A DNA stretch of 64,000 bases from Dolomitihabitans soli. GTDB taxonomy: Bacteria > Actinomycetota > Actinomycetes > Streptosporangiales > Streptosporangiaceae. The notes under the pieces are model-generated. The model saw only the letters and a program-made list of their open reading frames with translations. It did not search any database and was not told where the DNA came from. The first letter of the stretch is position 1, and each line of letters opens with the position of its first letter. The position numbers were made by a program, and so were the translations under genes. This document shows, piece by piece, positions 38,967 through 43,126 of this stretch. The stretch covers positions 310,001 to 374,000 of the forward strand of contig NZ_JAKNTW010000001.1 in assembly GCF_022213955.1 (NCBI RefSeq). Direction: 5' to 3'.

Positions 38967-39848
38967 TCAGCGATGAATGCCGAGTTCGCAGGGGGAATCG
39001 GTGGCGTCGCGAGGGTCTCGGGTCTCGGCCCTGATCTCGGAGAGGACGCCGAGAAGCCTGTCGCCGTCGACACCGAACTGTGTGACCTTGGCGGTGGCGG
39101 CACGGACCGCCTGCCTGAGAGCCGGTGCGGGCTCGACCCCGGCGGAGCGCAGCGCGAGGAACACCCCGGCCAGGATCTCTCCCGCATGGGTGGTGTCCAC
39201 CGGCGTGACCGGGACGGTGGCGGCGTGCCAGGTCCGCCCGGCCGCCGAGTAGGAAGCGCCCTTCGGGCCGTGCTTCGTGATGGCGGAGTTCTGCGGCAGC
39301 GGACCGTCCGCGAAGAGGATCCGGCGTTCCTCGTCGTTCATGAAGGCGAGATCGCAGCTGTTGAGGGCGACGCGAGACCCCTCCGGATCGAGCTCGGCAT
39401 AGTGCTCGAACGCATCGGCTGACACGGTCCGGTGCCCGGGGAGCGCCTTCAGGAAGGCCAGCCATTCCTGTTGCTGGGCCGGGGGAGCGGTGCAGATATG
39501 CACGTGACCGGCGCTCTCGTACTCCCTGGGAAAGCAGGAGAGGGCGGCGTGCGAGGCCACTCCGAGATCCGTGTCGAACGACCGCCTGCCATCGGAATGC
39601 TGAACAATGCGAAAACGAGCAGAATGCCCGTCCAGGATTCCCAGTCCTCGGGTATCGATGCCCAGCCTCCGGAGTGGACCTAGATCGTAATCGGCACCGA
39701 TCGCCGAGACGAGCCCGACCTGCTGGGGGGCGAGGAGAGCGGCGCCGCGTACGCATCCGTATCCGGCACCGCCTGGACTCCGGGTCTCGCCGTGCGGGGA
39801 GTATTCATCGTTTGTTCCGACGTGACCTATGATTACGATATCGACCAT
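38967..39848 (-). CDS. PfkB (ribokinase)-family protein with altered catalytic motif
   Basis: A 293-residue protein from ATG 39848 with AAGGGGA 6 nt upstream. PfkB landmarks are a short N-terminal strand (MVDIVIIGHVGTNDEYS), GGAGYGCVRGAALLAPQQVG as the substrate-binding GG motif and a nucleotide-binding C-terminus. The DTxGAGD catalytic/anion-hole motif reads DTTHAGE (residues 218-224): Gly to His and the catalytic base Asp to Glu. PfkB enzymes phosphorylate sugars or nucleosides; with a viperin nearby a nucleoside role is tempting but unproven. Divergent from the PRTase-like gene. Confidence 0.8.
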   Translation of the reverse strand: MVDIVIIGHVGTNDEYSPHGETRSPGGAGYGCVRGAALLAPQQVGLVSAIGADYDLGPLRRLGIDTRGLGILDGHSARFRIVQHSDGRRSFDTDLGVASHAALSCFPREYESAGHVHICTAPPAQQQEWLAFLKALPGHRTVSADAFEHYAELDPEGSRVALNSCDLAFMNDEERRILFADGPLPQNSAITKHGPKGASYSAAGRTWHAATVPVTPVDTTHAGEILAGVFLALRSAGVEPAPALRQAVRAATAKVTQFGVDGDRLLGVLSEIRAETRDPRDATDSPCELGIHR

Positions 39849-40038
39849 TGAAGTCCCCTTTGTTCTGGTTCTTGCAATGCTCAGCGCCTCAGTGTACCGG
39901 GTGGCCGTTTTTCGGACTAGCCTTAAATGGAATTATGGATTAGTTGCCTAGTGATCCACGGCTTTGAAGGGGTGGCGGCAGGCTGCTCGAACCGGATATC
40001 CTCTGGCCCATCCGCGTGGGAAGAAGCCTGGTGCAGAA

Positions 40039-40815
40039 GTGGAAGTCGTCATATTCGCTCTCGCCGTGACGGGATCCCTGGTCGGTGCACTGACCTTGTT
40101 GGTCAATTTCAGCCAGTACAGGCTGCAAAAGTCGCTTAAGCCTGGAGCGCCCGGCGAGAGAATGGATCCGGTAGAAGCCGGAAAGATACTCCGCGACGTC
40201 ACTTCCGACCCTGTCAGGATTATTGCCGCGAACCATATCTTCATCGAATCGGAGAAAAAGGGCGTCGGCTATATCGACAAGCAGGAGATCGGGATATATC
40301 TAGACATGCACAGCGCCGCCTGTGATCCGGAAAAACGCGAGACCCTGGCGGGGGCGCTGGCGGATTTCGTCCGGCAAACGGCGGGATATCAATCACTCAA
40401 CGGCGTTTCATTCGCGTCTCCGCGTGAAGGAAATCTCCTTGTGGGGGCCGGTGCGGCACAACGCCTCGGGCTGAACTTCCTGATGATCAGGACCGGCAGG
40501 GCTCCGCGGTTCGGATATCCGATCGAAGGGGCCTTCTCTCCGGGATCGACCGCGATTCTGGTGGATGATCTCTGCATGGAGGCGACGTTCCTCACCCGAT
40601 GCGTCAAACTGCTCCGCAGGTATGGCTTGAATGTGTCCCACTGCGTCTGCCTGTTCGAGAGGCTCGACGGCAATGCCAGGGAGGGGCTCGCCGAGGTTTC
40701 GGTCGAACTTCACTCGAAGTACCAGATCGACGACGAAGAGCTGGCTCGATTCAAACAGTACGGTGAATCCGCCCTGGAAGACGATGGGCGACCGGAAGGG
40801 ACGGAGAAGTCGTGA
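40039..40815 (+). CDS. Membrane-anchored phosphoribosyltransferase-like protein
   Basis: About 258 residues from GTG 40039 (TTG 39964 would add 25). A single N-terminal helix (VIFALAVTGSLVGALTLLVNF, with residues 3-23 spanning the membrane) anchors a cytoplasmic type I PRTase-like domain reminiscent of orotate PRTase: GNLLVGAGAAQRLGLNFLMI, PIEGAFSPGSTAILVDDL and a long C-terminal helix. The PRPP loop, normally DDVxTTGxS, is VDDLCMEATF, keeping the two Asp but losing the TTG. GC content and codon choice (ATA, AAA, TAT) are less biased than neighbours. Overlaps the next gene (GTGA). Confidence 0.75.
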   Translation: MEVVIFALAVTGSLVGALTLLVNFSQYRLQKSLKPGAPGERMDPVEAGKILRDVTSDPVRIIAANHIFIESEKKGVGYIDKQEIGIYLDMHSAACDPEKRETLAGALADFVRQTAGYQSLNGVSFASPREGNLLVGAGAAQRLGLNFLMIRTGRAPRFGYPIEGAFSPGSTAILVDDLCMEATFLTRCVKLLRRYGLNVSHCVCLFERLDGNAREGLAEVSVELHSKYQIDDEELARFKQYGESALEDDGRPEGTEKS

Positions 40816-41864
40816 CCGGCGACCTGACATCCTGGGGCGAAAAAGGATTCTTGGCCGACCTGCTTCCCGGGTTGTATGTGGACCCCCTGTTGCTTGGCGG
40901 ATTCGGGCATGACGCATCGGTGATCGAGTTGCCGGATGCCCCCTTCAATCTCATCCAGAAGATCGATCGGGCTTCGCACCCGGTGGCGCTCAAAGAAGGC
41001 TGGTCCGGATATCGAACCTGGGGACGAATGGCGGTCACCGCGAATTGCAGTGACATCCTCGCGTCGGGCGGGCGGCCGATCGCCTGCATGATGGCGGTCA
41101 TGGTACCCGGTACCGAGAAGGCCGTTAACGTGCGGGACATCATTTTCGGCGCCGCCGACGAATGCCGGGCCAACGGAGTGATCTACGCCGGCGGCGACAC
41201 GAAGGAGGCTCAGGACCCCCATGTGGTGGGAACCGCCATCGGTATTATCGAAAAGGACGGATTCCTGCCGAGAAACACGGCGGAACCCGGGGATCAGCTG
41301 TTCTGCGCCGGATTGGTAGGCGGTTTCGCCGGAGCGTACTTCATGCTGAAGAACGTGCCGCAGGATGAGCGGGACCACACGGTCGACGCCTACATCGAGT
41401 ATCTCGCCTCACCCATTGCGCAGTGGTGTGCGGCACGGGAGATGAACAAGAGAAAGGCGGCACGCTGCGGCATGGACGCCAGCGACGGTATTTTGGACGT
41501 GCTCCAGACGTTCTCGTCGGCGGGCGTTCAGGTCAACCTCGACCTCGCCGAGGTTCCTTACCATGATTTCGCCGTCGAGTGTGCACGAAAGACCGGTATC
41601 CCGCTCACGCAACTTATCTTCGGCGGCGGTGACTGGAACATCCTGTACTGCGTTCCCCCTGATCGGGTGGCGGAACTGCGCGAGGTGCGCGGTGTTCCCA
41701 TCTATCGCATCGGCGAGATCACGGCTGGCAGTGGTGTCGTCGCGCGCGCGGGCGATGGGGCCGAACACATGGTGCGTGGCGTGGTGAACGAACACTTCAA
41801 AAGCAGGATCGAGGATGCCACCGGTTTCATGGACAGCATCGAGAAGGGGAGGTTCATTCAGTAA
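40812..41864 (+). CDS. PurM/ThiL-like (AIR synthase-related) ATP-binding protein
   Basis: A 350-residue protein from GTG 40812 with GGAGAAG upstream. It shows the AIR-synthase superfamily layout: RTWGRMAVTANCSDILASGG (the DxxAxGG metal/ATP site), GVIYAGGDTKEAQDPHVVGT, and CGMDASDGILDVLQTFSSAG at the start of the C-terminal domain (the MDxSDGL motif of ThiL/PurM). Members phosphorylate or activate small molecules with ATP (thiamine phosphate, FGAM, selenide, HypE). Exact activity unknown. It is coupled to the PRTase-like gene and overlaps the convergent viperin 3' end by 7 bp. Confidence 0.82.
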   Translation: MTGDLTSWGEKGFLADLLPGLYVDPLLLGGFGHDASVIELPDAPFNLIQKIDRASHPVALKEGWSGYRTWGRMAVTANCSDILASGGRPIACMMAVMVPGTEKAVNVRDIIFGAADECRANGVIYAGGDTKEAQDPHVVGTAIGIIEKDGFLPRNTAEPGDQLFCAGLVGGFAGAYFMLKNVPQDERDHTVDAYIEYLASPIAQWCAAREMNKRKAARCGMDASDGILDVLQTFSSAGVQVNLDLAEVPYHDFAVECARKTGIPLTQLIFGGGDWNILYCVPPDRVAELREVRGVPIYRIGEITAGSGVVARAGDGAEHMVRGVVNEHFKSRIEDATGFMDSIEKGRFIQ

Positions 41865-42729
41865 AGCCCACCACGGGCGAGGAATTTCTTGCGATTTATA
41901 GTAATTTGGGAGATGGCCTCTCCGACGCCGACCTGGAGAATGCTGTCGCTGTACGTGTAGCCGTGGCCAAGGGCGTCGAAGAAGCGGCCGGCTGGGTCGA
42001 CCATCGCATAACTGCCGGTCATCGCCTCGTTGTCCTCAGGAATGATCCGCACGCCGTGCGCCTCCACGGATACGCTCCGCGCGACGAATCGTGCGAACTG
42101 GTCGGCGGTGACCAGCAAGGGTTCCACCTTTCCTGAGTTCTGTCCCCAGACGGGAGTACCTCGAATATCTTCCAGCGTTCCGGCTGGGCGGCGATGATGA
42201 ACTCGGTCAGGTCCTCGAAGTGGTTGGCGGTGGTGACCACGGTGTTGATCTTCAGGCGAAAGCCGTTCTCCTTGAGACGCAGGCACAGGTCGAGGTAGTG
42301 GGTTTCGCTCGCGGGTAGCGCCGCTGTCACCCGGCCCGTCATGGCCAGGGTGGCGGAGTTCAGGCTGTCGACGCTGATCGTCACCCAGTCGAGGATGCCG
42401 CGTAGGCTCCGGAGGGTCTCGGTGCTCAGCAGGCTGCCGTTGGTGACGAGTGCGGTGGTGAGGCCATGGGCGCGGGCGAGCCGGATCAGATCGATGATCC
42501 AGGGGCAGAGCAGTGGCTCTCCGCCAGCGAAGGTGATCTTGAGAAACCCGGCGTCCGCGAGCAGGGACACCACCCGTTCCGCATCATTTTGAGTGAGGTG
42601 TCCCTCAGGCAGGACCGTGCGCCGCACGTCGCGGAAGGTGGCAAAGCAGAAGCGGCATTTCATATTGCAGGGTTGCCAAAGATGAAAATTAACTGTCTCG
42701 ACTGGTACGCGCGCGCCTGTTAAGATCAT
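41858..42729 (-). CDS. Prokaryotic viperin-like radical SAM enzyme, apparently frameshifted
   Basis: Viperins use SAM and a 4Fe-4S cluster to turn a nucleoside triphosphate into its 3'-deoxy-3',4'-didehydro form, a chain terminator. From ATG 42729 (GGAG 6 nt upstream) the protein has the cluster motif QPCNMKCRFCF (CxxxCxxC, Cys 21/25/28), FAGGEP at 67-72 and viperin-specific LKINTVVTTANHFEDLTEF and ERWKIFEVLP. The frame then breaks at 42152-42154 (CCC on the coding strand). One base missing there restores TADQFARF, IIPEDNEAMTGSYAMVDPAG, SILQVGVGEAISQITI and FLARGGLY, all viperin C-terminal features. Restored length is about 290 residues. Codon 3 is TTA. Confidence 0.85.
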
Positions 42730-43126
42730 TATAATCTCCATTGGCTATACGTCCCTGTCACGCGAATGTTAGTGTGATTTATCGGACTTGTCAGCTCAGG
42801 GGCCGTTTAAAAGTCAGACGCGGGATGATACCCCTTGGACGCAGCGGCGGATCGCTTGAGATCGAATGGCTCAGGGAAAGCATCGGCCTTCGGCAGAACC
42901 GTGCGTAACAGCTCCTTTCGTACAGCGCCTCTCGTTGTGATCGCCTGAACACCGTGCCTGACGGGTGAAGAGCCTGAGATCCTTACAGGAGGGGGCTCCG
43001 GGTTCCGCAGCACGGCCTGCGTCACCCGCGAGGTGCCGTTCGCCATCCGGGGGGCGGTGCCGCCCCCCGGCCAAGAGTGCGGGAACCAACCGAAGGGGGG
43101 CTGGGGCACCGCGCCCCTGACAGCCA
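42730..43126. other. Intergenic region with GC hairpin
   Basis: 397 nt between the viperin start and the next rightward gene. The left part is AT-richer and should hold the viperin promoter. The right part holds the hairpin CCGGGGGGCGG/CCGCCCCCCGG (43047-43070, 11-bp stem, 2-nt gap) and a smaller GGGGC/GCCCC hairpin near 43105. No gene could be supported. Confidence 0.6.

Follow-up and report, generated by a model that had tools for sequence, protein, structure and literature searches.

In the window (the whole 64,000-nucleotide stretch that was analysed), which comes from the 10.8 Mb genome of an actinomycete in the same family as Nonomuraea sp. G32, we found four adjoining genes: a PfkB-like kinase (minus strand), an OPRT-like PRTase (plus), a PurM/ThiL-like protein (plus) and a viperin (minus). 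The first-pass annotation had proposed this set, and open reading frames together with Pfam/NCBIfam and PADLOC matches placed all four genes at the positions it gave. The features are as follows.

38967-39848, minus: PfkB-like kinase (PF00294, 7.9e-17)
39177-39197, minus: altered catalytic motif DTTHAGE (canonical [DN]xxGAGD), invariant in the three orthologues
39849-40038, no strand: divergent intergenic region, a 190 bp gap with the presumed promoters of PfkB and PRTase-PurM
40039-40815, plus: OPRT-like PRTase with an N-terminal TM helix (NCBIfam OPRT, 1.1e-7; PDB OPRT 2wns, 1.7e-6)
40048-40107, plus: hydrophobic N-terminal segment, a predicted single TM helix (Kyte-Doolittle mean)
40561-40590, plus: degenerate PRPP loop VDDLCMEATF, aligned with VEDVVTSGSS of OPRT
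40812-41864, plus: predicted PurM/ThiL-like ATP-binding enzyme (TIGR01379 thiL, 8e-43)
41858-42741, minus: viperin interrupted by one frameshift (NF038283; PADLOC pVip), intact in Nonomuraea at 72% identity
42140-42160, minus: single-base frameshift site, near 42150, where the reading frame changes

The genes are tightly packed. The PRTase and PurM-like genes share 4 bp, and the 3′ ends of the PurM-like and viperin genes share 7 bp, as had been annotated. The interval 39751-42750 is the lowest-GC 3-kb stretch in the window (0.600 versus 0.705 for the whole window), GC3 is 0.70-0.80 in the island genes versus 0.90-0.94 in the flanking genes, and ATA, AAA and TAT codons are enriched in the island, in agreement with the initial description of 39.8 to 42.8 kb as less GC-rich DNA with these codons. 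Neither a tRNA nor convincing border repeats were found at the island, and we therefore assigned no mobile-element mechanism.

Nonomuraea sp. G32 and Catellatospora paridis carry the same four genes, each at an unrelated site with different flanks. Because they recur in these two other genera and are all under purifying selection (dN/dS 0.11-0.15 across the four genes), the grouping is more than a chance cluster. In Nonomuraea sp. G32, the viperin is intact, gene order and overlaps are as in the window, and the GC content of the island is also low. The order in Catellatospora paridis is PfkB (minus), PRTase (plus), PurM (plus) and viperin (plus), and its PRTase, PurM and viperin genes, which lie on one strand with a 4-bp overlap at each junction, probably form a single operon. 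The gap between PfkB and PRTase is present at all three loci, with little conservation of its sequence. The trio, by which we mean the PfkB-like, OPRT-like and ThiL/PurM-like genes, is orthologous across the three genera; identities to the window proteins in Nonomuraea and Catellatospora are 77% and 67% for PurM, 74% and 59% for the PRTase, and 67% and 47% for PfkB. Unrelated flanks in three genomes and low GC content also uphold the earlier suggestion of transfer, and we regard the island as a horizontally mobile module.

Among the 297 genomes of the order covered by a protein search, only 2 carried the trio, and the PurM subfamily did not turn up in any of 53 other Nonomuraea genomes, 299 relatives of Catellatospora that were sampled or 252 further members of the class. 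The trio is known from three instances, two of which (the window and Nonomuraea) belong to one family, and this count is a lower bound because the scan of public genome contigs, which added the Catellatospora locus, used weak N-terminal patterns. Strong viperins (E<1e-50 with the PADLOC profile PDLC02903) were found in 8 of 294 genomes of the order, with the trio beside two of them and absent from the other six (hypergeometric p 6.5e-4 for co-occurrence, uncorrected for the relatedness of the genomes). Weak PDLC02903 matches in the order (1e-20 to 1e-27) probably represent other radical-SAM proteins and were not counted. The trio thus implies viperin (3/3 genomes, never seen without it), whereas a viperin need not be accompanied by the trio, and the trio-viperin association is well supported. 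Homologues of the PRTase/PurM pair occurring mostly without viperin would, according to the first-pass annotation, have spoken against a viperin module; the neighbourhood survey that it proposed gave the reverse. Neighbours changing freely between relatives were to count in the same way, and here the outcome is divided, as the order of the trio is conserved but the viperin does change. We consider it very probable that the trio and viperin constitute a real functional module, mobile and viperin-associated as had been envisaged. No description of it was found in the open-access papers searched, from which the main pVip paper is excepted, and its novelty is provisional to that extent. Nonomuraea sp. 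G32 and Catellatospora paridis offer a small, intact and testable locus.

The window viperin is read in two frames (42019-42741 and 41858-42286, minus). The N-terminal frame alone scored 201.5 bits against NF038283 (cutoff 180), the PADLOC pVip model matched at 2.6e-58, and the radical-SAM motif CxxxCxxC appears in the alignment as CNMKCRFC. The reading frame is broken in the window copy but intact at both related loci. The dN/dS was 0.11 downstream of the break versus 0.15 upstream; codons past the break are still strongly constrained, and therefore the frameshift is either a very recent lesion or a sequencing error. Programmed frameshifting was rejected as unlikely; every relative seen reads in one frame. 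Viral contigs queried with the viperin, PRTase, PurM, PfkB and the TIR-fusion domain described below gave no match. With the module found on no phage or viral contig, it is the viperin by itself that points to a role in defence.

The window and Nonomuraea viperins are 72% identical, and the Catellatospora viperin is 37% identical to both. The latter is equally close to Moraxella and Pseudoalteromonas plasmid viperins and, like them, lacks the GQNSG insert. Grouping of the three viperins as one clade was rejected (AU p 4.6e-5 with 16 sequences and 3.2e-6 with 22 sequences), although long branches in the tree leave the exact place of the Catellatospora viperin uncertain. Judged by these alignments and trees, the Catellatospora viperin is from another lineage than the window and Nonomuraea viperins. 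The trio was absent from all 11 plasmid viperin loci and all 6 close chromosomal viperin loci inspected. These six viperins surround the window viperin in the tree, and at their loci (L076, L077, L079, L080, L081 and L078, with the viperin at approximately 7.9-8.9 kb of each) the viperin overlaps a squalene-hopene-cyclase-like protein of approximately 590 aa, which in L078 has C-terminal hydrophobic segments. An inositol monophosphatase (IMPase) follows in L076 (by Pfam) and, by sequence, in L077, L080 and L078. A Thiodictyon plasmid (L047:4034-6849) carries both squalene-cyclase-like and IMPase genes, in split form, beside integrases. No description of a squalene-cyclase-like/IMPase viperin module was found in the papers searched. 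Additionally, three cyanobacterial plasmid viperins and one from Pseudoalteromonas adjoin a thymidylate/deoxynucleoside-kinase-like (tmk/dNK) gene, a partner type already known for viperins; two of the four loci were checked by Pfam. Because the trio pairs with two viperin lineages and the nearest relatives of the window viperin carry another module, viperin is the exchangeable part and the trio the constant part. Bacterial viperins are thus plug-in components, for which at least three types of partner module exist.

Other layouts were observed on plasmids. A Treponema 'viperin' (L053:2435-6798) lies in a same-strand run with cytidylyltransferase-, PEP-synthase- and cysteine-desulfurase-like genes; its sequence is very divergent, and its function may not be that of a viperin. 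The Acinetobacter (L052:5246-6897) and Moraxella (L051:5192-6873) plasmid viperins have comparable local surroundings: both lie directly 3′ of a gene of similar size, which in Acinetobacter belongs to the lecithin-retinol-acyltransferase family and in Moraxella encodes a hypothetical protein.

The PfkB-like protein matches PF00294, and its closest solved structure is 3kd6 (1.9e-16), but the GAGD with the catalytic Asp base is replaced by HAGE in all three orthologues, whereas the PfkB paralogues of the window genome with a readable motif all end in AGD ([DN]xx(G/A)AGD). The PurM-like protein had been called both PurM/ThiL-like and AIR-synthase-like, and only the former name holds, as the closest family is thiamine-phosphate kinase (ThiL) and not AIR synthase. 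It has the AIRS N and C domains with GGDT and SDG (PF00586 at 1.7e-18, above the cutoff; PF02769 just below the cutoff), its closest solved structure is ThiL 2yxz (5e-20), and the ThiL ATP/Mg motifs GGDT, MDxSDG and GGxDWxxL are largely kept. Its score of 146.6 bits falls below the curated ThiL equivalog cutoff of 184.15. The plasmids searched with PurM-like gave ThiL/SelD-type matches only. The ThiL-like protein could be a functional kinase that uses ATP and has a phosphorylated nucleoside as its substrate, an assignment that we hold tentatively and at rather less than an even chance.

The mechanical open reading frame of the PRTase spans 39964-40815 (plus), with a likely GTG start at 40039 that agrees with both homologues. 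Its N-terminus exceeds a Kyte-Doolittle mean of 2.3 in all three homologues (2.4-3.05 over 19 residues). The OPRT PRPP 5′-phosphate loop (TSGxS/TTGGS) is replaced by MEATF, MEASF or MEGSF, and VDDLCME is invariant in the three island PRTases; the loop is canonical in the other PRTases of the window genome. Because the phosphate loop is gone, the island PRTase probably does not work as an ordinary PRPP enzyme. Of the earlier label 'membrane-anchored PRTase-like', the conserved hydrophobic N-terminus thus stands, while ordinary PRPP chemistry is improbable. Relatives of the PRTase were not found on the plasmids. AlphaFold models based on three-sequence alignments were poor for both this protein (pLDDT 40) and PfkB (pLDDT 45). 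The OPRT-like protein may be a nucleotide-binding sensor rather than a transferase, and we put this only slightly short of an even chance.

In the order survey, the best relative of the PRTase domain outside the islands was a 611-residue TIR-OPRT-HIT protein from another genome, G162.

L006:949-2784, strand not given: TIR(PF10137)-OPRT-like-HIT fusion of G162 (PF10137, 3.7e-27)

The OPRT-like domain of this apparently undescribed effector architecture matches the window PRTase at 1e-12 by blastp, with 25% identity, and its TIR domain is of the CAP12/Pycsar type found in Pycsar/CBASS effectors. A tree grouped the island PRTases and the G162 protein against 28 ordinary OPRTs (100/100). This link is a weak point, as it depends on 25% identity and very long branches. 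No viperin match was found in the G162 genome in the order survey, and none lies near the fusion gene. Exchange of TIR and TM parts on one sensor domain is typical of Pycsar/CBASS effectors. That the OPRT-like domain follows a TM helix in the island and a TIR domain in G162 recalls such effectors and suggests that it would be a sensor rather than an enzyme.

Overall, our putative model treats the island as a mobile defence locus built around viperin: the trio would be a conserved accessory cassette that works with an exchangeable viperin. Viperin would make a ddh-nucleotide. The PfkB- and ThiL-like kinases, neither of which is a P-loop enzyme, would act on the viperin substrate or product in its nucleoside, NMP or NDP form and would stand in for the thymidylate/deoxynucleoside-kinase-like protein that accompanies other viperins. 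The OPRT-like protein, without the usual PRPP binding, would bind a nucleotide at the membrane as a sensor, regulator or effector. Beyond the association itself, this processing of the viperin nucleotide by altered kinases and its sensing at the membrane are what we infer, and PfkB, which is divergently transcribed, could simply lie beside the module without belonging to it. With the mechanism included, we judge the model about as probable as its negation.

Other explanations account for part of these data. The protein families of the trio would suit a substrate supply or salvage chain of three ordinary enzymes that leads from base or nucleoside through NMP to NDP and feeds NTP to viperin, the PRTase converting base and PRPP to NMP, PfkB converting nucleoside to NMP and the ThiL-like protein converting NMP to NDP. 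P-loop nucleotide kinases do accompany other viperins, and viperin-kinase models exist in PADLOC. However, the PRTase phosphate loop and the PfkB catalytic Asp/anion hole are both altered, and actinomycetes already make NTPs; we consider the supply chain unlikely. We are more doubtful that the trio uses a ddh-nucleotide intermediate from viperin to make either a nucleoside natural product that diffuses or a modified cofactor. The actinomycete setting would favour such biosynthesis, as would the metabolic-looking squalene-cyclase-like and IMPase genes beside other close viperins, but the island has four genes only, with no transporter, regulator or tailoring genes. Hitch-hiking, in which genes of a defence or mobile region moved together without joint function, would agree with a low-GC island at a different site in each genome and a sporadic distribution; yet order and overlaps are conserved at 59-77% identity, the viperin is swapped by lineage but always present, and all genes are under purifying selection, and we regard it as very unlikely.

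A further possibility concerns signalling: viperin, with the PfkB- and ThiL-like proteins, would make a nucleotide that the TM-anchored OPRT-like protein senses, acting as a membrane effector in the manner of Pycsar and CBASS effectors. The PRTase has lost its PRPP loop while its fold is kept under selection, its domain follows a TM helix in the island and a TIR of the Pycsar/CBASS type in G162, and PRTase-like partners are present in other defence systems, such as DprA+PRTase (PMC9122126). Nevertheless, a single TM helix may be an anchor only, ddh-NTPs are known as chain terminators and not as signals, and the G162 relative is distant with no viperin nearby. We find signalling improbable in this general form, and more so the specific proposal that a ddh-nucleotide or derivative from the altered kinases is the messenger and the membrane OPRT-like protein, as kin to TIR-OPRT-HIT, its receptor or effector. 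If signalling were true, viperin would be a signal synthase and not a maker of chain terminators alone, and a long-standing view would need revision; as a receptor, the OPRT-like protein would provide a candidate sensor fold for ddh-nucleotides.

To place our preferred model, the mobile viperin defence locus, among known systems, we compared the island with each of them. Prokaryotic viperins (pVips) are reportedly the subject of Bernheim et al. 2021. The window viperin resembles them in matching both pVip models (NF038283 and PADLOC) and in carrying the motifs of radical-SAM proteins and of viperins. Known pVips are partnered by P-loop nucleotide kinases or have no partner, whereas the partner genes of the island are new and the window copy is frameshifted. 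The 2021 work is cited in PMC9122126 and PMC10732462. In comparison with ThiL, the closest family, the PurM-like protein has GHDAS in place of GDDAA, a score under the curated cutoff and no thiamine genes nearby. DprA-PRTase is an anti-phage system that also contains a PRTase-like protein (PMC9122126), but its partner differs and it has no viperin. The TM and TIR effectors of Pycsar/CBASS parallel the OPRT-like domain behind a TM helix in the island and behind a PF10137 TIR in its relative; however, the island sensor domain is OPRT-like and not cNMP-binding, SAVED or STING, no cyclase lies near the island, and of the two fusions the island has the TM one, with TIR in the distant relative only. 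The loci that pair pVips with cytidylate/thymidylate-type kinases, and animal RSAD2-CMPK2, likewise place viperin beside nucleotide-phosphorylating genes. At the window viperin there is no adjacent P-loop nucleotide kinase; its neighbours instead comprise two unrelated kinase folds (PfkB and ThiL) and an OPRT-like membrane protein.
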